Shown here one piece after another: positions 3,779 through 35,092 of a DNA stretch of 35,092 nucleotides. Under the pieces are notes generated by a model. That model was not told the DNA's origin. It saw only the letters and a list, made by a program, of their open reading frames with translations, and searched no databases. The stretch comes from a virus, in the IMG/VR virus record IMGVR_UViG_3300031565_000186, positions 1 through 35,092 of that record, one strand, 5' to 3'. A program made the position numbers and the translations under genes. Numbering within the stretch: the stretch's first letter is position 1; each line of letters opens with the position of its first letter.

Positions 3779-4387
3779 CTATGCCGCCTCTGTTTCGTCA
3801 CTGTGCGGCTCTGTGAGAAGCTCTACGGCCTGATTAGCCAGCATGATCGCTGCTGACTGCACGACATCCGGCTTGATCCTCCATCCAGCGCCGATTGCCC
3901 TCGTGAAATAGTCTGTCGTCAAACACTGAAATTCAGCCCTTAACCTAGATAAGTCCAGTTCAACCTCGCAGTTAGTGCCAGATTTATCTATCTGCTCTTG
4001 AAGCTGTGCGTTTGTTTCTGCTTCACTTAGTTCCATTTGTTGTTTGGCTGTGAGCCTTGAGCGTAATGTGTCTTCGTATTTAACGTGAGGATCGAAGACG
4101 ATGCGGTTGCTGGTGGATCTCTGGCCTTTGTAGAATGGCTTTGCATAGACCATGTATCCGTAGTCTCTGAGCTTCCTGACGTGGTATCCTACTGCGGTTC
4201 GCTTGCTTCCGATGTCTTGTCCGATGCGTTCATTGCTGACGAAGGTGCGTCCGATGCTGTCGCAGTAGCTACAGAAGGCAATGAGAACCCGGAGGGTTTT
4301 GGGCGTGATCCGTGGATCTTTGATCGCTCTGATTGGTACGATTGCAAAGGCTCTTAGATCTTTGGCTCTGAGTTGTTTGGGTCTCAA
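3779..4387 (-). CDS. Winged-helix protein, replication-initiator type, TTG start
   Basis: This 202-aa protein has an N-terminal winged helix (about 28-82): TLRVLIAFCSYCDSIG, then FVSNERIGQDIGSKRTAVG as the helix-turn-helix, then LRDYGYMVY as the wing. This resembles HTH_36-type domains of phage and plasmid replication proteins. The C-terminal half is helical and charged. No ATG exists before the domain. The frame begins at TTG 4385-4387, which overlaps the upstream TGA as TTGA, with GAGGA about 9 bases upstream, so translational coupling from a TTG start is likely. It is one of two winged-helix proteins in this operon and may bind the origin or regulate early genes. Confidence 0.7.
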   Translation of the reverse strand: MRPKQLRAKDLRAFAIVPIRAIKDPRITPKTLRVLIAFCSYCDSIGRTFVSNERIGQDIGSKRTAVGYHVRKLRDYGYMVYAKPFYKGQRSTSNRIVFDPHVKYEDTLRSRLTAKQQMELSEAETNAQLQEQIDKSGTNCEVELDLSRLRAEFQCLTTDYFTRAIGAGWRIKPDVVQSAAIMLANQAVELLTEPHSDETEAA

Positions 4388-4914
4388 AACGGATAGTCCT
4401 CTATTGGGTCGGCTGGCTGCTCTCTCCGGGCGTATGTCTCTATGCGGTTTTCTTCCAAGCTTTGCCGATACATTTGGATCACGTTCATCGTGATGAGGTT
4501 TTTTTCTAGCAGTCTGTCTGCTCCTGATCCGGTGATGTATTCATCTCCTACCGCTTCGCCGTGGTTCATGCGCCTTGCGTTGATTGCATCGCTGTCCCAT
4601 GCGACTGACTTTGCTGGGCCTAGAATTGGTGGCTTGTATGCGTCTGAGCATTTCTGTGCTGCTTTGACCATGTTGTAGATTGTGGGCCATGATCGTGTGC
4701 GATTGTTCTTGCGGATGTCCTTGCCCATGTTTCGGAGGATGTTGGTTAGCCCTTCCTCGTTTATGGAGCTGACGATCTCGCTGTTGATGTCCTCGACCAT
4801 TGCTGTCATTTCTGTGGCTGCTCGATCAGGCGTATGGTTTGCAGGTACATCATACGACTGCAATTCTTTTTGCAGCCATGCGCCGATTGCTTTTGTTCTC
4901 TGCTCGTAATTCAT
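4384..4914 (-). CDS. 176-aa replication-region protein with SSB-like C-terminal tip
   Basis: This mostly helical protein lies between two winged-helix genes, overlapping the upstream one by ATGA and the downstream one by TTGA. Visible segments are an N-terminal helix (RTKAIGAWLQKEL), a helical middle with W and K/R-rich patches (DIRKNNRTRSWPTIYNMV), and a long C-terminal helix. It ends PADPIEDYPF, where the acidic residues plus terminal Pro-Phe resemble the SSB tail. The context suggests a replication accessory, perhaps a loader or adaptor that brings host helicase or primase. I do not recognise the fold, and no Walker motif is present. Confidence 0.65.
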   Translation of the reverse strand: MNYEQRTKAIGAWLQKELQSYDVPANHTPDRAATEMTAMVEDINSEIVSSINEEGLTNILRNMGKDIRKNNRTRSWPTIYNMVKAAQKCSDAYKPPILGPAKSVAWDSDAINARRMNHGEAVGDEYITGSGADRLLEKNLITMNVIQMYRQSLEENRIETYARREQPADPIEDYPF

Positions 4915-5597
4915 TGGATCATCTTTCTGTCTGTTTCCAGTGAGCCTAGAATAGCCTGCATCTGCTGGTCGCTTGTCATATCTTGCAAAGAGGGTTGCTG
5001 GATCTCATCATCCCAACGCTCACCGTTTAGCCATGTTGCCAAATGCGGCATGAATTTTTTATCTTGCTGTCCCCATGATCGGACAAAGAGCGAGAGCGAA
5101 TGTTGGATCTGATCGATGGGAGCTTTCTTCATTGCTGTCGCCAGCGCTTTACGAGCTGTACCCTTGCCAACCTTCTTTGGATAGATCTTCCAGAGATCCT
5201 CAAAAATGGACATATTATTAAGGTTATCTTTTACATGGTTATTACTTACTAGGTTAGTATGTAAATTTTTCACATCGGAACCTGTAAATTTTACATATCC
5301 GTTCTGTAAATTTTTCATATCGGGATTTGTTGACATATGAAGCTTGTAGCTGTTGCTCGTTTTGATGCCATTTCCCTTTGTCCTGGCTGTCTTTGTAATG
5401 AGACCGGCGGCTTCCAGCTTGTCCAGGTGAGTATGCACTGACTTCTCCGACATCTCACAATCTTCAGCAAGCTTGGCAATGCTGGGGAAACATCCATAAT
5501 CAGGATTGAACCGATCAGATAGATAGATCAGCACGATTTTGGTGGCTGGCTTCAGCCCTTTGATGGTCAGCGCCCAATTTGTCGCTTTGAATGACAT
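4911..5597 (-). CDS. Phage replication protein with HTH_36-type winged helix
   Basis: The N-terminus (MSFKATNWALTIKGLKPATK) leads into a winged helix: KIVLIYLSDRFNPDYGCFPS, SIAKLAEDCEMSEKSVHTHL and LEAAGLITK. After a low-complexity Asn-rich linker with two similar short segments (NLQNGYVKFTGS and DVKNLHTNLVS) comes the C-terminal module FEDLWKIYPKKVGKGTARKA followed by MPHLATWLNGERW, typical of replisome-organiser proteins of temperate phages. Such proteins bind the origin and bring the host helicase. I choose ATG 5597 (228 aa) because AGGG lies 8 bases before it. The in-frame ATG at 5615 has no ribosome site. With no phage polymerase visible, this is the best candidate initiator. Confidence 0.8.
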   Translation of the reverse strand: MSFKATNWALTIKGLKPATKIVLIYLSDRFNPDYGCFPSIAKLAEDCEMSEKSVHTHLDKLEAAGLITKTARTKGNGIKTSNSYKLHMSTNPDMKNLQNGYVKFTGSDVKNLHTNLVSNNHVKDNLNNMSIFEDLWKIYPKKVGKGTARKALATAMKKAPIDQIQHSLSLFVRSWGQQDKKFMPHLATWLNGERWDDEIQQPSLQDMTSDQQMQAILGSLETDRKMIQ

Positions 5598-5682
5598 CGC
5601 TTTTACCCTTTTCATTTGGGCAGGATCGTCCTATTCTGACCCTGCACTTGTTTTTGGTTCTTCTAGTGTACTTCAGTCCTAT

Positions 5683-5714: not shown

Positions 5715-6125
5715 TTACCAGGTCACAGTCGTGACTAAACAAGGCTCAACGGCGTATCGCTTGAATACCTTGAGATCATATACCTGGGCATCATCCTCAA
5801 AAACCACGCCATTGAAACTGTCCAAGACGATCTTGGCTATGTTGTCGATGTCTGGCTTGCCGGGGTAAATGATATCAGCCGCAGCCGCCGCCTTCCTTGC
5901 TTTGGTCCAACTCTTGGGGATCTCAAATTGTGCTTTGATAACCATCTGGCACGGCTTTTCTGTCGGTTCCAAGTTGTGCAAAGCCATGTAATCAGATGCA
6001 GCCGCAGCTAATCGATGCTCAAACTTGCGGGTTTTCTCGGGCGTGTAGACCCTGCCCATGCGAGTAAACCGGGGCCGACCCTTGCCGATGGGTTGACCAG
6101 GGAGCCATATATAAGTCGTGGTCAT
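5715..6125 (-). CDS. rusA: RusA-family Holliday junction resolvase
   Basis: RusA cuts four-way junctions formed in recombination and replication. The family signature is plain in 136 aa: the N-terminal GQPIGKGRPRFT (10-21), the segment VYTPEKTRKFE, and the acidic metal-binding core KPDIDN (D92 and D94) with LDSFNGVVFEDDAQV carrying D111 and D112. The length is close to the usual 120-135. The ATG at 6125 overlaps the stop of the RHH gene (ATGA), so it is second in the leftward early operon. It likely works with the annealing protein encoded at 7975-8700 on the other strand. Confidence 0.93.
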   Translation of the reverse strand: MTTTYIWLPGQPIGKGRPRFTRMGRVYTPEKTRKFEHRLAAAASDYMALHNLEPTEKPCQMVIKAQFEIPKSWTKARKAAAAADIIYPGKPDIDNIAKIVLDSFNGVVFEDDAQVYDLKVFKRYAVEPCLVTTVTW

Positions 6126-7193: not shown

Positions 7194-7500
7194 AGTGAAC
7201 ATAAAAAAGATGCACCACCGCGGGGCTGGGGACACAGAGACCGCGGCGGCGCATCAGGCGGCCGCAAAGGTTACAGGCAGGAGATTGGAGACCCTGCGCG
7301 CGCTATCGACCCTGGGAGGAGGGTCAGGGGAGCAGATAAGCGCCTCTTTGCGGCTGCCTATCACTAGCATAAGACCACGCCTAACGGAACTGCAAGAAAT
7401 GGAGCTGATCGAAGACACCGGGCGGCGCCATAAAAACCAATACGGCAACGGCGAGATCATTTGGGCCGTCACAAAACAAGGGGAACAATATGTTTTTTAA
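7180..7500 (+). CDS. Winged-helix DNA-binding protein, 106 aa
   Basis: It starts MKIYEVNIKKMHHRGAGDTE at ATG 7180, with GAGGAG 7 bases upstream inside the preceding gene. After an Ala-rich segment come helices of a winged-helix fold: RRLETLRALSTL, then SGEQISASLRLPITSIRPRL as helix-turn-helix, then MELIEDTGRRH and a strand EIIWAVTKQG. The MHHxGAGDTE start followed by a winged helix is a recurring type in phages of alphaproteobacteria. It is probably a transcription factor or nucleoid modulator acting early. The stop overlaps the Gp157 start. Confidence 0.75.
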   Translation: MKIYEVNIKKMHHRGAGDTETAAAHQAAAKVTGRRLETLRALSTLGGGSGEQISASLRLPITSIRPRLTELQEMELIEDTGRRHKNQYGNGEIIWAVTKQGEQYVF

Positions 7501-7975
7501 GCTAATGGAAATCCGCGAAATGTCCGATCACATCAGGCTATTGACCGGAGACGATCAGGACACATTCTTGGACACGCTGGACGGTGAGACCGATGCGATG
7601 GACATTCTGGGCAAGCTCATTCAGGAGCGCACCGAATGCTCAATCTACGAAGGGTCAGTCAAAGAGTTAGCAGCAACCTACACCGCCAGAGCAAAGCGCC
7701 TCTCAGCCAAGCAGGAAGCGCTCTCGATCACGATTGGTCACTTGCTCGATGCAATGGGCCAGACTAAGATCCAACACGCTCTAGGAACAGTTAGCCGGAC
7801 CAAACCCCGCAAGAAAGTTGTGGTAATAGATCCGCACGACATTCCCAGCCAGCTAACAACAGTAACAGTCAAGCCAGACATGGCAGCAATTAAAAAGCAG
7901 ATGGATGCAGGGGAGCTTGTGCCAGGTTGCGAATATCAAATGGGCAGCGCGTCTGTCACAGTGAGGATCAAATAA
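7490..7975 (+). CDS. Siphovirus Gp157-family protein
   Basis: This 161-aa protein shows the Gp157 layout: long N-terminal helices with EGSVKELAATYTARAKRLSA, then the middle GHLLDAMGQTKIQHALGTVS, then a strand region TKPRKKVVVIDPHDIPSQL ending in KKQMDAGELVPGCEYQM. Gp157 proteins nearly always sit beside an ERF- or Rad52-like annealing protein, as here, and are thought to act in phage recombination; the biochemical role is not settled. AGGGG lies 6 bases before ATG 7490, and the TAA overlaps the ATG of the annealing gene. Confidence 0.85.
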   Translation: MFFKLMEIREMSDHIRLLTGDDQDTFLDTLDGETDAMDILGKLIQERTECSIYEGSVKELAATYTARAKRLSAKQEALSITIGHLLDAMGQTKIQHALGTVSRTKPRKKVVVIDPHDIPSQLTTVTVKPDMAAIKKQMDAGELVPGCEYQMGSASVTVRIK

Positions 7976-15575: not shown

Positions 15576-18500
15576 TTACTCTCCTAGTTTAGCTTTAAGC
15601 TCGTCAATCTGAGCCTGTTGTTCCTTCATGGCTTCAATCAAGAGAGCCACCATGTTTCCGTATTTAACTGACTTGATGCCTTGGTCATTTGTGCTGACTA
15701 CGTCCGGCAGTACAGCTTCCACTTCCTGAGCGATTACGCCGACCTCTGAGTTGCCATTCTCGATCCAATCGAATGAGACACCACGCAGGGACTTAACGGC
15801 ATCCAGAGAGCCTGTGAGCGTCTCTACGTTTGTCTTGAGGGTAGCGTCTGAGGTGGTGTTGAAGTTGGCTGCGTTTACTGTGCCGCCGAAGTAACCGTCT
15901 TTGTAACTGTATGATGAAGTGCCGATGTCAATGCTATTACCTGTGAGGGAACCTGAAGCCATTGGTGCAATAGTACCTGACCCAAAGAATAAACCACTCC
16001 CTGAAGTAGAGTTTATAAGTAAATTAGTTGTTGAGTTCCCAATACTCCCCACAATGGAGCCGCTTTTGTAGAGCTTAACAATGTCGCCATCCGACCCCGA
16101 TCTACCAAAGAAACCACTAGCCGCAGATGCTGCGTTTATGTTGAAAAAACCAGTTGATCCGATTCTCATTCCTGCAACTGAATTGCCTATTGGGTCTGTA
16201 TTCGTAGTCCCCACAAGCAGGTTGCCCGATGCATCCAGCCTCATACGTTCTGAATCATTAGTGCCAAATGCTATTGCACCGTTTTCTTTATTGTTTACCC
16301 CAGCAAGTGTACCCTGCATATACAACTCAAAGCCATCAAAAGTGCCATCACCTGTTGTGGAGTTCTTAAAATTAAGCCTTGGAAGCGTAGCGTTATATAA
16401 ACTTAAACATGACCCACTTGGCGTACTAGGCGAACTCGTCCCAATGCCTACGTTACCGCTGCGTGTTACCGATAGTATATCGCCTGACGTGTCAGAAGAA
16501 ATGACATAAGATGTTAGAGGGTTATCATACCTTGTTCTGATAATCTCAGTGCCAGCACTATTTTCAAAACCAATAAAGCTATCATTTGCACCAGAATTGC
16601 CAGTACCCATGCGAATGGTCATGCCAGCATTGGTTCCACTTCCAGCATCTAGCTCAAGAAGATTACTAGGCGAACTCGTCCCAATGCCCAAGCTCTCCGC
16701 GCTCGCATCCCAGAAGAACTTTGGTGTCGAGCCTGTGTCCTCGTACAGTGACAGGTCGCCGTTGTTGGCAATGATAGCACGTTGTTTATTTGTTCCACCT
16801 TCATTGGTAATAAAACGTAAGTCACCACCAGATGTTGCCGCCTTTATATAATTAGCAGTAGACCCTGTCATATCAATGATATTGTTAATTGTAGCTGTAC
16901 CATCCACAGTCAGCCCATCAGCCGTCACTGTGCCAGTTACGTCAATACCTGTGGAGGTGGTGGCGAGTTTGGGTGAGTTGTTATGATAAAGAGCAACTTC
17001 AGCGTTTGTATCAAAAACAGCAGATGTATTGGCACCACGTTTAACTTGAAAGCTATCGTTTGCATCTAGAATTATATTACCAGTGCCTTGATCGCTAATA
17101 TAGCTATTGCTACCATCGTGATAAATCTGCAAATCACTGCCAGCACCGAAGATGGCCTTGTCGCTGTCGCCGAAGGACACATCCGCAGTAGTAGTTAATC
17201 CTGCAAACGTAGGGCTATCGCTATTACCAAGGCCAAGGTTAGTCCGGCCAGCAGAAGCAGAAGCCAAGTCAGACAGGTTGTTGGCAACAAGCAGAGCGCC
17301 TGACAGAGAAGCATAAGCAGCAAGCCATGAACTTCCGTCATACACCTTCATCACATTGTCAGTGGTATTAAAATATAAAGCGCCTGAAATCAATGCGTTA
17401 CCGTCATTGTCCAGCGTAGGATCGGATGCTTTAGACCCCAGATAACGATCATCGAAGTTATCCAGTGCAGCAAGAGCAGCGTCCTTAGCGGCCTCAGATG
17501 CAGAGGCAGAGCTTGCACTAGCTGTTGCAGATGTTGCCGCCTCTCCGGCCTTGGTCGTTGCTATGCCAGCCTGCGTTGTCGCCGTTGCGGCGCTGGTTGC
17601 TGCGTTGGTCTCGCTTGTTGACGCATTAGATGCGCTTGTAGAAGCAGCAGATGCACTTGAAGCAGCATTAGTCTCTGCTGTCTCAGCGTTGGTCTCAGCA
17701 GTTTCAGCAGCAGCCTGCGCAGCAACACTAGCCACCCTAGATGTTTCACTAGCAGTGGCGCTGTTAGCACTATTGGTGGCGCTAGTAGCGGCATCATTCT
17801 TACTGGCTAAAGCAGATGCAGCATTCGCACTCGCATTCTGAATGTCAGTAATGTTTGTTGCGTTAGTATTGATCGATGCAATGTTTGTTGCGTTTGTATT
17901 TACATTAGCAATGTCTGTCGCAACAGTGTTCACGTTTGTAATAGATGTTGCCACGGTCCCAATGTCAGCACCGTCAGCAGCAACAGTATTAATATTAGAC
18001 GCATTTCCAGCAACCGAAGTCACATTGCCGCTAATACCAGAAACAGTTGTAACATCAGACGATATACCTGCGACAATACCGATATCAGTGCCATCAGCCG
18101 CAACCGTAGTAACGTCCGAGCTAATCCCTGCAACAGTTGTTACATTGCCTGAGATGCCGGATACCGTGGTGACATTTGCCCGGATCGTGTTGACGTTTGT
18201 AATAGCGTCAGTCGCAACCGTACCGTCCTGGATCTCAGCAAGGGTCTTAATATCAGCAGAGATACTTGCTAGTGAATCGACATCAGCAATCTCTGGACCT
18301 GGCTCTGGATCACCCGTAGTCGCATTGAACCCGAGAACTGTACCTTTGCGATCATCCTTCAGAGGAAGCTCTAGGTCAGTAAACACATCACCAGGGTTCA
18401 CAAACAGACCACGCCCAAGCTTCTCATCGAGCTGTTGGGTCATAATCACGTTACTGTCTAGCTGTTCGTTTAAGCTAGAAGCCAAAAGATCCCCGGCTGT

Positions 18501-18770
18501 AACAAAGTCTGTAGTCCGTGAAAGCTCACGACCACCAATGATTGTAAGAACGTCAGATGCTATGAGAGCAACAGTTAGAGTAATAGACCCCGTTCCATTC
18601 GCGTTAATACTGACCGTGTAATCAGTGGTAAGCGTTAGCTCCGTAGTCCCCTTGAAGACTGCGATATCACCATCGACCAAGATGTTGAACGTAAAGGCAT
18701 ATGGACCGGTTCCGGTATTGCCTGTGAACTGAACCCGGCGGGTTACTGGATTAATTGCGATATCACTCAT
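15576..18770 (-). CDS. Tail fibre with T7 gp17-like anchor, decapeptide stalk and S74 chaperone
   Basis: 1064 aa. Residues 1-160 match the T7-type fibre anchor (VTRRVQFTGNTGTGPYAFTF, DIAVFKGTTELTL, LNEQLDSNVIMTQQLDEKLG). Residues 190-310 carry a 10-residue repeat with Val or Ile at each tenth position. Residues 311-436 are Ala/Ser/Thr/Asn-rich and look helical. Residues 440-970 are a Gly/Ser/Thr-rich shaft with phrases such as LGIGTSSPSNLL. The last 91 residues (Ser974 onward, SDATLKTNVETLTGSLDAVK) form a Peptidase_S74 intramolecular chaperone that trimerises the fibre and normally cuts itself off before that Ser. A promoter candidate lies upstream. Confidence 0.92.
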   Translation of the reverse strand: MSDIAINPVTRRVQFTGNTGTGPYAFTFNILVDGDIAVFKGTTELTLTTDYTVSINANGTGSITLTVALIASDVLTIIGGRELSRTTDFVTAGDLLASSLNEQLDSNVIMTQQLDEKLGRGLFVNPGDVFTDLELPLKDDRKGTVLGFNATTGDPEPGPEIADVDSLASISADIKTLAEIQDGTVATDAITNVNTIRANVTTVSGISGNVTTVAGISSDVTTVAADGTDIGIVAGISSDVTTVSGISGNVTSVAGNASNINTVAADGADIGTVATSITNVNTVATDIANVNTNATNIASINTNATNITDIQNASANAASALASKNDAATSATNSANSATASETSRVASVAAQAAAETAETNAETAETNAASSASAASTSASNASTSETNAATSAATATTQAGIATTKAGEAATSATASASSASASEAAKDAALAALDNFDDRYLGSKASDPTLDNDGNALISGALYFNTTDNVMKVYDGSSWLAAYASLSGALLVANNLSDLASASAGRTNLGLGNSDSPTFAGLTTTADVSFGDSDKAIFGAGSDLQIYHDGSNSYISDQGTGNIILDANDSFQVKRGANTSAVFDTNAEVALYHNNSPKLATTSTGIDVTGTVTADGLTVDGTATINNIIDMTGSTANYIKAATSGGDLRFITNEGGTNKQRAIIANNGDLSLYEDTGSTPKFFWDASAESLGIGTSSPSNLLELDAGSGTNAGMTIRMGTGNSGANDSFIGFENSAGTEIIRTRYDNPLTSYVISSDTSGDILSVTRSGNVGIGTSSPSTPSGSCLSLYNATLPRLNFKNSTTGDGTFDGFELYMQGTLAGVNNKENGAIAFGTNDSERMRLDASGNLLVGTTNTDPIGNSVAGMRIGSTGFFNINAASAASGFFGRSGSDGDIVKLYKSGSIVGSIGNSTTNLLINSTSGSGLFFGSGTIAPMASGSLTGNSIDIGTSSYSYKDGYFGGTVNAANFNTTSDATLKTNVETLTGSLDAVKSLRGVSFDWIENGNSEVGVIAQEVEAVLPDVVSTNDQGIKSVKYGNMVALLIEAMKEQQAQIDELKAKLGE
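17841..18203 (-). repeat. 30-base period coding for a decapeptide stalk repeat
   Basis: Within the fibre gene twelve units have Val or Ile at residues 200, 210, 220 and so on to 310, usually preceded by Asn or Asp. The first six read like SGISGNVTTV and AGISSDVTTV and are nearly alike; the last ones become NTNATNIASI. The period is exactly ten residues with no indels. This differs from the 7-residue rhythm of a coiled coil and suggests a stacked beta fold. The DNA copies vary at third positions. Confidence 0.75.
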
Positions 18771-31044: not shown

Positions 31045-31294
31045 TGTTTGACCTTTCTATTTTTTTCTCAATCATGCGTACCATCTCTGCCATGCCTGTC
31101 CTTACATAGCCGAAACTCGCATCCTCTCCAGGGAACCAAGTCGGTTGCTCAATCGTTATGCTGCGCAAATGACTTAGAACACGTTGCCCCTCTGTGCTTT
31201 TAAACACCTTGCCGTATAGAACATCTATATCAGCAGCCTTTGGGCTTTCGCTTATTGCTTGGGTTAAACCTTCCCACCCATCGGGTGAACTCAT
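31037..31294 (-). CDS. Bbp19-like small phage protein
   Basis: 85 aa. The core ADIDVLYGKVFKSTEGQRVL, SHLRS, then a Phe/Tyr-containing segment and GYVRTGMAEMVRMIEKKIE fits the Bbp19-like domain (pattern YxxvFxtpeGxxVLxdL, then REGqrsvvxxI). Such proteins are found between portal and scaffold genes in many podoviruses; function unknown, perhaps head assembly. Its ATG overlaps the portal stop by ATGA. Confidence 0.75.
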   Translation of the reverse strand: MSSPDGWEGLTQAISESPKAADIDVLYGKVFKSTEGQRVLSHLRSITIEQPTWFPGEDASFGYVRTGMAEMVRMIEKKIERSNNG

Positions 31295-32853
31295 TGCATA
31301 GCCTCCATTGTTGCTCCACCATCATTAGCAGTCGGCGGCCCTTGTTCGGCCATTGCTTGCGCCTGCATCTGTCGCATCATCATTTCCTGCTCTTCTGCTG
31401 TGGTGAGCAAGTCCTGTTTGATGTTCATCTTATCGGCAATGAATGCTGTGATCCGTGGGATCGACAATGCCATCTGACCCTGCGGGCCTAGAGAGTTGGC
31501 AATCTGCATAAACTGCACGATATCGTTTACCTCTTGTAACTTCTGGGCTTGAGCCAGAGGAGCCACCGGCGTGACCTTTACCTCTACACCGTTGACCTTG
31601 AGCGGCAGATCGATGTAACCAGCCTGGTCCATTACATAGAGAATGCGTGACACCAGCGGGATCATAGTCTCATCGATCAATCGACCAAACGCAGAACCCA
31701 GATTAGAAGCAAGCTCACGGGATCTTTCAGCAATCTCAGTCGCAGACCGGGCTGACATATTATCAGGCGGCAACGTATCATCCATCAAGATCTTCTTAAT
31801 GTTCATGCGCAGATCATTCATAACGATCTGACTTGTGTTAAAGTCACCGGCACGGGGCAGAGGAGACAGGGACGGACCCTGTGCGCCACCGTTACGAGCC
31901 ACACCAATAATTGCTCCAGGCTGGATCTTTACGTTCTGAGGATTGAGAACGCCATCGTCAGCAGCAGTATATACGCCAGAGATCGACAGAGAAGCATTCT
32001 TCAGAACCAACTCAACGGTCTTGTTTAGCGTCTTAATGTCAGCAATCGCAGTAACCAGGGGACCACGGCCATATATCTCACCGGCAACCTTCATGTAACG
32101 TGCAACGATGAATGGCGAAGACTTCATGGTGCGGTAAACCAGATCTTGCCGCTTACCAGGCCAGATAACATGATAGCAATAGATCGCTCTTTCGTAATCA
32201 TAGATCACAGCATCCATAAGATCGATCTCTTTAGATGGTGATCGTGATATCGCATCTACCAATTCCGGCGTCATTTCAGCATCAGGGAACTCTTGCGGTA
32301 TCGCTTCAGCCTTCATTCTTAGCTTGCGATACACATTATCGACATTGCCGAATGTACCTTCTTCAATCGAAACGAGATACTGAGGGATGGGTGTAAAGCG
32401 GATCGGAGTTGCCTCATCACCAGGCGTCACCATCATCACGGCAGTACCCACACAGAGATCCAGAAGGAACTCGCCCATAGCCAGATCAAAGTTAGTCTGG
32501 CGCATTACCTCAAACATCCGCTCAGTGTAAGCATCAAGCGCAGCTTGAGCCTGTGGCTGTTGTTCTTTTGGGATGCCAGTGCCAGCCTCTAAGCGACACC
32601 ATTGCTTCTGAGGTGGAAACAAGCCAGCCTGTATGCGGTTAGCGAAACGCTGAGTCGCTGAGATAGCTGTGGAGTCGAACACACGGCCCATCTTCTTTTG
32701 ACCGGCGGTGTTACCCTCATAGTTTCCATCGTACATATTGCGCTGCGGTAGAGCGAACTCGTAGCAATCCTCATAGATAGTACGCCATTGATCCTTGCGG
32801 GATTGGGCCTTGGCCTCACGCTCCATGATCTCTCTTACGTCTAGCCGAGCCAT
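31291..32853 (-). CDS. Portal (head-tail connector), gp8-like
   Basis: 520 aa. The gp8-type pattern is clear: RKDQWRTIYEDCYEFALPQR, then VFDSTAISATQRFANRIQAG and LFPPQKQW, then EFLLDLCVGTAVMMV, YGRGPLVTAIADIKTLN and the crown segment DTLPPDNMSARSATEIAERS. These are hallmarks of the Head_tail_con family. The C-terminus is Gln/Met-rich and likely disordered (EEQEMMMRQMQAQAMAEQ). The protein forms the dodecameric channel where terminase docks and DNA enters. The gene lies between the DUF6321-like gene and the Bbp19-like gene. Confidence 0.92.
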   Translation of the reverse strand: MARLDVREIMEREAKAQSRKDQWRTIYEDCYEFALPQRNMYDGNYEGNTAGQKKMGRVFDSTAISATQRFANRIQAGLFPPQKQWCRLEAGTGIPKEQQPQAQAALDAYTERMFEVMRQTNFDLAMGEFLLDLCVGTAVMMVTPGDEATPIRFTPIPQYLVSIEEGTFGNVDNVYRKLRMKAEAIPQEFPDAEMTPELVDAISRSPSKEIDLMDAVIYDYERAIYCYHVIWPGKRQDLVYRTMKSSPFIVARYMKVAGEIYGRGPLVTAIADIKTLNKTVELVLKNASLSISGVYTAADDGVLNPQNVKIQPGAIIGVARNGGAQGPSLSPLPRAGDFNTSQIVMNDLRMNIKKILMDDTLPPDNMSARSATEIAERSRELASNLGSAFGRLIDETMIPLVSRILYVMDQAGYIDLPLKVNGVEVKVTPVAPLAQAQKLQEVNDIVQFMQIANSLGPQGQMALSIPRITAFIADKMNIKQDLLTTAEEQEMMMRQMQAQAMAEQGPPTANDGGATMEAMQ

Positions 32854-33134: not shown

Positions 33135-33254
33135 TTACTTCTTTGGCTTGGCAGCGGCCTTCTTGGGCGCAGCTTTCTTCTCAGGAACCGCAGCCTTTGC
33201 CTCAACAGGCTTTGGTCGAATGTGTACGCGGGGATCTGATTTGATTTGAGTCAT
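33135..33254 (-). CDS. 39-aa Lys/Ala-rich peptide
   Basis: ATG 33254 with AAAGG 6 bases upstream; TAA at 33135-33137. The first 20 residues are MTQIKSDPRVHIRPKPVEAK and the rest is an alternation of Lys, Ala and Pro, like a histone-H1 tail. It may help condense DNA or be a linker peptide. It is small, but its tight spacing and clean ribosome site support expression. Confidence 0.5.
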   Translation of the reverse strand: MTQIKSDPRVHIRPKPVEAKAAVPEKKAAPKKAAAKPKK

Positions 33255-33265
33255 GTCGAGCCTTT

Positions 33266-33631
33266 CTAATCTACAAAAATTAGCTTCATCTTTTTAGCCA
33301 TAGTCTGAGCGGCCTCATACTTCTTGCGCCGAGCCTTGCCCTTCTTTATCTTAGCTTCTCTTTCAGCAGCCCTGGCAGAAGCAACCTGTTGCTCTGGAGT
33401 GGGGCCTTTGGCAGCACCAGTGGCACCCCTGCCGGCATAGCTTCCAGTACCGGCACTCTTGTTGTTACTGCGATCACTATTGCGATTCAGATTTTCCATA
33501 AAAGATTTTTGGGAAGCTGCCCTCTGCCTATTCTCTTGAGGGGTGTACCGTCCTCCGAATGGGTCTAAATCAGCAGTTGTTTTGTTATACTTCTTAATTG
33601 CACTAACAATTTTTCCAGCGACCACAACCAT
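33266..33631 (-). CDS. Basic coiled small protein, 121 aa
   Basis: ATG 33631, 2 bases after the stop of the gp7.3-like gene with GGGGG about 7 bases upstream, gives 121 aa. The upstream frame start at 33682 would overlap that gene and is less likely. The N-terminus is hydrophobic (MVVVAGKIVSAIKKY) and the middle disordered with Gly, Ser and Asn. The end is a strongly charged helix (ARAAEREAKIKKGKARRKKY). The allele at the left edge shares only the charged end, so this locus is highly variable. Function unknown. Confidence 0.6.
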   Translation of the reverse strand: MVVVAGKIVSAIKKYNKTTADLDPFGGRYTPQENRQRAASQKSFMENLNRNSDRSNNKSAGTGSYAGRGATGAAKGPTPEQQVASARAAEREAKIKKGKARRKKYEAAQTMAKKMKLIFVD

Positions 33632-33633
33632 AA

Positions 33634-33933
33634 CTAGCCCCCAAGTGTCGATGATTTTTGCTGTTGCTGGAGCAAGAGCCACTCAGACTGAGACATTCCC
33701 TCCGGCTTCTGATTCGGCCCCTCTTGACGCGCGGGAGAAAACAGAAGCCTTAAGCCACCAGAGCGGCGCAAACGGCGTCTACGCTGCACACCCTGCATCT
33801 CAGAACGCTCAGAGGAAGTCGCACGTTCCTCTGCGCGTGTGTTGGCCGCCGCAGCATCTTGCTCTGCACGAATTTGTGCTGCTGATTTAGGAGGGGGAGC
33901 CGAAGATCCACCACCGCCAAATAATCCACCCAT
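33634..33933 (-). CDS. T7 gp7.3-like small tail-assembly protein candidate
   Basis: 99 aa: MGGLFGGGGSSAPPPK, a charged helix (AQIRAEQDAAAANTRAEERA), and the core QRRRRLRRSGGLRLLFSPAR, then a Gln-rich C-terminus (MSQSEWLLLQQQQKSS). Compared with the sibling allele (318-554), the core is conserved and the C-terminus replaced. The arrangement resembles T7 gp7.3, a virion component needed for adsorption. That link is by pattern. GAGG lies 7 bases before its ATG, and the gene follows the GNAT gene by 1 base. Confidence 0.65.
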   Translation of the reverse strand: MGGLFGGGGSSAPPPKSAAQIRAEQDAAAANTRAEERATSSERSEMQGVQRRRRLRRSGGLRLLFSPARQEGPNQKPEGMSQSEWLLLQQQQKSSTLGG

Positions 33934-33934
33934 G

Positions 33935-34414
33935 TTAAAACCTCACCATCATGTAATAGTCGGACCCGTCTGGCCCGTACTTCCTCATAACACTTTCTAC
34001 CTCAAAACGTAGTGCTTTGGCAAACCTAAATGCGGTATCGTTATTCGTGTTTACGCAGATCTGTAGCCTTTTTATGCCGTTATTAGCTATTGCGGTATCG
34101 GTTAGCTGCTTAGAAGCCCGTATAACCGATATCGCATGGCGCTCAATCTCTTTGCCGGGGATCAGCCACATCTCCGCAACACCATCCCAAAAGGGGCGAA
34201 TGCCAAACGCACAGACAACCTTACCTCTCCCGATGCCAGACCAGCTCATCCCGTCTACGGCGTGATCCCAGACATAGTTAATGTAGTTAGGTATCACGTT
34301 AGCAAAGTCTTTGTTCTCTTCTTTAAGGTTTATCCTGGCTAAATGATCGTAGGTCAGCGGAACAATATGCTCATCGTGTCCCATCCTTACCTGGGGCAGT
34401 TGAACTAAAGCCAT
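33935..34414 (-). CDS. GNAT-fold protein, T7 gp13-like (main-genome copy)
   Basis: 159 aa, the intact main copy of the gene also seen at 556-1035. The main differences lie in residues 21-50 (TYDHLARINLKEENKDF here), while the acyl-CoA-type core (GKVVCAFGIRPFWDGVAEMW) and the C-terminal half are nearly unchanged. It overlaps the terminase stop as TAATG and is followed 1 base later by the gp7.3-like gene. In T7 gp13 sits between capsid-core genes and helps core assembly. Here it sits directly after terL, a different gene order. Confidence 0.75.
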   Translation of the reverse strand: MALVQLPQVRMGHDEHIVPLTYDHLARINLKEENKDFANVIPNYINYVWDHAVDGMSWSGIGRGKVVCAFGIRPFWDGVAEMWLIPGKEIERHAISVIRASKQLTDTAIANNGIKRLQICVNTNNDTAFRFAKALRFEVESVMRKYGPDGSDYYMMVRF

Positions 34415-35092
34415 TAGAAGACCTCGAAATCTGTGCTTGCGTTGAATGTTTGCCCACCCGCAAAGCTTCCGCCATAGGTTCCGCGCCGCAATCTGCGTTG
34501 CTCACCGCCACCGAGCATAAGATATCCAAACGCATCCCCGCAGTGAGAGTGCTCATTCTTTACCGGCGCATCTTTAAACCGATCCTGCCCAGCGCCCATA
34601 GACACACGCTTGAAGAAATAGCCGCCACTCAGAGATTTCCGCAGCCGCAGGCACTTCTTGCTAACGAGAAGTCCAGGTTTACCACCAACCAGCCGGTTCA
34701 TAGGAGCCGCAGCAGCCTCACGCCTTACATTGAAAGCATTGCTATCTGTTGGCTGTGCGCGAAACCCAATAGACTGCAAGTGATCGAAGGCTGTAACCTC
34801 ATAGATCTCGTCACGCTTGTTACCGGCGGGGTCTCCCCAGATCTGCACCTCTGCTTTATTGAAGCTTGCAGCGATCTTGCCTATCAACTCCTGCCCAAAG
34901 CGTTCAAGCCCCATGTCAAACGTCACAAGCTCATCGAGGATCTTCCACGCGCCGCCAGATGTTCGCTGCCCAAAGATAGCCGCCGGTGTCAAACCAAAGT
35001 CAACGCCGATCTGTAGCGGGTATTGCGGATCATACTGCACATCCGCAGACATCATTTCATCGTCATACTCCGGCCAAACCGGCCTGCCTTCC
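34414..35092 (-). CDS. terL: Terminase large subunit, partial (main-genome 3' end)
   Basis: These 679 bases encode the C-terminal nuclease of TerL, running off the right edge. The region matches 1035-1713 with the same spacing and no indels. Only two amino acids differ in the visible overlap (FNAS for FSAS, EVF for EIF), while many third-position changes exist, so purifying selection is strong. Joined at 34965/1587 it completes the terminase gene of the main phage. An internal ATG at 35055 is not a start; the gene continues upstream across the junction. Confidence 0.85.
   Translation of the reverse strand, partial: EGRPVWPEYDDEMMSADVQYDPQYPLQIGVDFGLTPAAIFGQRTSGGAWKILDELVTFDMGLERFGQELIGKIAASFNKAEVQIWGDPAGNKRDEIYEVTAFDHLQSIGFRAQPTDSNAFNVRREAAAAPMNRLVGGKPGLLVSKKCLRLRKSLSGGYFFKRVSMGAGQDRFKDAPVKNEHSHCGDAFGYLMLGGGEQRRLRRGTYGGSFAGGQTFNASTDFEVF
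34966..35092. repeat. 127-base exact match to 1587-1713 (assembly junction)
   Basis: Every base from 34966 to 35092 equals 1587-1713, and the base before differs (G versus T). This marks the ring closure, giving a unit length of 33,379 bp. A length of exactly 127, ending exactly at the window edge, equals the largest k-mer commonly used by de Bruijn assemblers, so the repeat is probably a product of assembly and not a biological direct repeat. Confidence 0.85.

Follow-up and report, generated by a model that had tools for sequence, protein, structure and literature searches.

An exact 127-base repeat in a phage contig most probably marks the closure of a circular genome map entered from another strain's allele

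Results

The window analysed here is the whole 35,092-nucleotide stretch of the IMG/VR record IMGVR_UViG_3300031565_000186, a metagenomic contig of a podovirus-like, uncultured tailed phage. Its two ends carry versions of the same group of genes, all on the minus strand. On the left, terL is assembled as a complete gene of 511 aa (1035-2570; PHROG terminase large subunit), next to a GNAT-like gene of 159 aa (556-1035), a small ORF (318-554) and a further small ORF truncated at the left end of the contig (1-318). On the right, the portal gene (head-tail adaptor; 31291-32853; phrog_332, E 7e-85) is followed by small ORFs at 33266-33682 and 33634-33933, by a second GNAT-like gene, also of 159 aa (33935-34414), and by 225 codons of a terL 3' end (34414-35091) that runs off the contig end. 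Both GNAT-like genes match phrog_4177 and score below the Pfam cut-off for Acetyltransf_4 (22.4 and 18.1 bits for a cut-off of 24.3); given this score and an additional match to phrog_308 (internal virion protein), the label "acetyltransferase" is tentative. Between the portal and the GNAT-like gene lies a variable slot of small genes (1-555 and 33150-33934) whose alleles are reshuffled among relatives, and which in the Methylophilales phage MEP301 holds seven small ORFs (gp37-gp43).

Several genes elsewhere in the window can be assigned from family matches. Matches to replication-initiation families were obtained for two nearby ORFs, at 3779-4387 (phrog_270, E 2e-6) and 4911-5615 (phrog_270, E 3e-44); one may be a diverged second copy inside the replication module. 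A Mu Gam-like end-protection protein is encoded in a plus-strand module (7490-7975; phrog_253, E 9e-20), not far from a RusA-like resolvase (5715-6125). The long tail-fibre gene (15576-18770) is a mosaic, with piecewise matches to many PHROG tail-fibre families.

Comparing the window with itself, we found that its last 127 bases (34966-35092) are identical to positions 1587-1713 at 127 of 127 bases. The base just before the two copies differs (G vs T), and the second copy stops exactly at the contig end while the first is internal, inside terL. This is the configuration expected of a k-mer overlap from a de Bruijn assembler, in which the overlap ends at the contig end and is preceded by a different base. 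The offset between the two copies, and between the homologous genes that flank them, is constant at 33,379, as the earlier note had described. With the exception of a single 25-mer within the tail-fibre gene, all self-repeats of at least 25 bases lie on this diagonal. Given 4% mismatches locally, a clean run of 127 bases has a probability of ~0.006.

Beside the repeat, the two versions are diverged alleles, in agreement with the earlier reading. Of the 1,031 positions aligned between 556-1586 and 33935-34965, 114 are mismatched; the longest mismatch-free run is 71 bases, and the differences are mostly synonymous. The GNAT-like alleles differ at 82 of 480 bases, 63 of them at third codon positions, with 17 of 160 codons non-synonymous; in the 3' part of terL, the 552 bases compared as far as the junction show 32 differences, 27 at third positions, with two non-synonymous codons. 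Because the differences concentrate at third positions, both the terL 3' and GNAT-like alleles look functional rather than decayed, and on this codon pattern both look to be under purifying selection. To the left of 556, divergence rises: the next small ORF (318-554) shares 60% protein identity over 77 aa with its allele at 33634-33933, and the one beyond (1-318) is a weak homologue of 33266-33682 (~26% over 90 aa, E 5e-6). A direct terminal repeat of the virion genome was considered for the 127-base repeat and rejected, one copy being internal at 1587 and the flanking copies diverged; the claim that this is no virion terminal redundancy therefore stands.

We then compared each version with related sequences. 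The left version, 1-1586, is found at 98.9% identity over 1-1585 and contiguous with terL in an independent contig (locus L005 of G001, IMGVR_UViG_3300020187_000087). On its other side, after fewer than 200 bases, L005 continues with the equivalent of window position 33149 downward through the portal gene at 96%, making the portal the natural neighbour of both slot alleles. Since the allele adjoins the portal region there, 1-1586 is an alternative version of 33.2-34.97 kb and not extra sequence, a placement also resting on ~99% identity and contiguity with terL in L013; it bears out the proposal that 1-1586 is the allele of a co-occurring relative. G007 and G009 carry the right version at 94-95%, directly adjoining terL. 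For each of the left-hand and right-hand junctions, six other contigs contain exact 30-mers that span it, which makes both of them natural haplotypes. Among the 28 relatives that gave a match, none carries two copies of the GNAT-like/terL region; in these relatives and in MEP301, terL and the GNAT-like gene each occur once and in the same order, and the earlier warning that two terminases and two GNAT genes would be a miscount is upheld. Alleles are combined in several ways: L023 has a GNAT allele like the left version, yet its match at 33.25-33.5 kb is of the right-hand type, and L004, L006 and L007 combine a right-hand GNAT allele with sequence like the left version at 1-118. As judged from these sequences, the population is a mosaic in which recombination between alleles is common.

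In 19 relatives, one end of each contig was compared with the other. Overlaps were found in four of them: 95 bases exact in G001, 118 exact in G002, 187 at 98.9% in G005, and 55 exact in G019, repeated at its two ends. No end overlap was found in the other 15, many of which are fragments. The overlaps lie at differing map positions, which argues against a fixed physical end. In G001 and G002, as in the window, a diverged arm is combined with an exact terminal match, giving three lasso-shaped contigs among the records examined. G001 differs from the window in that the allele seen at 1-1586 lies beside its own portal region; its own arm and 95-base overlap are near the region of the tail-fibre gene. 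The terminal matches of G001 and G002 are not 127 bases long, so the group as a whole does not share that length, and those contigs would come from other settings or have other causes of ending.

The closest cultured phage found, MEP301 (MW452941.1), has a circular assembly in which terL and the acetyltransferase each occur once. It resembles the window in its gene order (portal, small ORFs, acetyltransferase, terL, terS), in its 67% identical terL, in its circular map and in its similar size (34,774 bp), and differs in GC content (40% vs 49% for the window). MEP301-type phages are defined by sharing at least 40% of their genes with MEP301 (PMC8024684); with tblastn matches (E up to 1e-3) to 17 of the 55 MEP301 genes (31%), the window falls outside this type.

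Finally, we built a toy de Bruijn graph with k = 127 from a circle, 1587-34965, and an arm, 1-1713. It resolves into two unitigs, one of 1,713 bases that ends with the 127-mer and one of 33,506 bases that both starts and ends with it. Joined with one overlap, they give the window base for base. The graph shows that a circle plus an arm suffices to yield the window, which is sufficiency and not proof of occurrence. Positions 1587-34965 form a closed walk, one full turn of 33,379 bp, and the same junction occurs in relatives. Once the circle is closed, its terL likewise has an uninterrupted frame of 511 codons. Two residues (503 and 510) distinguish it from the assembled terL, whose 5' part belongs to the shared body and whose 3' end is the arm allele. 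The earlier proposal of a circular 33,379-bp genome is thus retained and refined: "circular" refers to the map, and the DNA in virions may have terminal repeats or be permuted.

Discussion

A de Bruijn assembler merging two variants at a k-mer they have in common leaves contig ends that overlap by exactly k. Contigs produced by metaSPAdes share ends of exactly the maximal k-mer length, maxK, and within-population variation is one simulated cause of contig breaks (COBRA, PMC10914622). The window resembles this case in its exact overlap, probably of length k, in the variant-shared sequence at which the contig breaks and in a circular genome left unclosed. It differs in that the overlap joins the contig end to an internal site and not to the other end. 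The strain arm at the start of the contig displaces the overlap inward, and the circle goes undetected when the two ends alone are compared.

The usual largest k-mer of metaSPAdes is 127, and the earlier note can be refined accordingly: the length of the repeat matches an assembler k-mer length. In the mechanism we propose, two incoming edges would converge on a single k-mer of 127 bases within terL, one carrying the other strain's allele (1-1586) and the other the genome's own allele (33380-34965). The contig would start on the strain arm, go once round the circle and halt on meeting the same k-mer again, at the putative graph vertex 34966-35092; the first copy, 1587-1713, would be the junction of arm and circle, and the repeat a graph overlap of length k. 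We consider it highly probable, at roughly 0.94, that the repeat reflects an assembler closing a circular 33,379-base phage genome after starting on another strain's 1.6-kb piece, with the circle's allele linked to the body. The assembler and its k, like the linkage of the circle's allele rather than the arm to the body, we infer, the latter from graph topology. The earlier claim that the second terL piece is the true 3' end of the main genome therefore holds as far as it is the terL 3' end of the circle, its attachment to the body following from that topology.

The phase of the two alleles is where the main alternative lies. The same artefact of circle plus arm could have arisen with the roles exchanged, 1-1586 belonging to the dominant genome and the ~1.6 kb at 33.38-34.97 kb to the co-occurring strain. 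Both junctions are natural haplotypes, the region past the junction is about equally close to relatives of either type, and natural mosaics such as L004, L006 and L007 exist, all of which are compatible with this reversal. Against it, the contig carries the right-hand allele in one continuous stretch with the whole body, to which the arm is joined solely through the 127-mer, and G007 and G009, which carry the right-hand type, match the portal region somewhat better than G001, which carries the arm type. As alleles are reshuffled among relatives, similarity cannot settle the phase; we regard the reversed phase as unlikely. Note that "stray" describes 1-1586 in this contig, not the allele as such.

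Readings in which the contig is physically real fare worse. That some phages hold two diverged copies of the portal-side small genes, the GNAT-like gene and terL as a standing partial duplication is very improbable. Less probable still is that the molecule is truly linear, with the GNAT-like/terL region present at its termini as long diverged copies: the contig as printed does show such a form, but virion terminal repeats are copied from each other and should be identical, the end overlaps of relatives sit at other map positions, no searched relative has two copies, and the MEP301 assembly is circular and has each gene once. If the contig spanned the joint between two related prophages lying in tandem on a host chromosome, one map segment could appear as diverged flanking copies, but we give this reading as negligible a chance, since no relative of the terL was present in the 84,980 bacterial and archaeal genomes searched, no integrase was found among the ORFs searched, and the exact 127-base repeat at the contig end would be left unexplained.

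Under the favoured reading, assembler closure of a circular map, a lasso-shaped contig represents a complete circular genome, one that escapes a test for repeats between the two ends and that, counted as is, gives two terminases and two GNAT-like genes; this calls for caution only. The phage is ordinary, and the feature is most likely a known type of assembly artefact that would matter little beyond gene counting and completeness. For the phage group itself, terL and the GNAT-like gene are most likely single-copy, and the variation seen here would be ordinary allelic mosaicism between co-occurring relatives.
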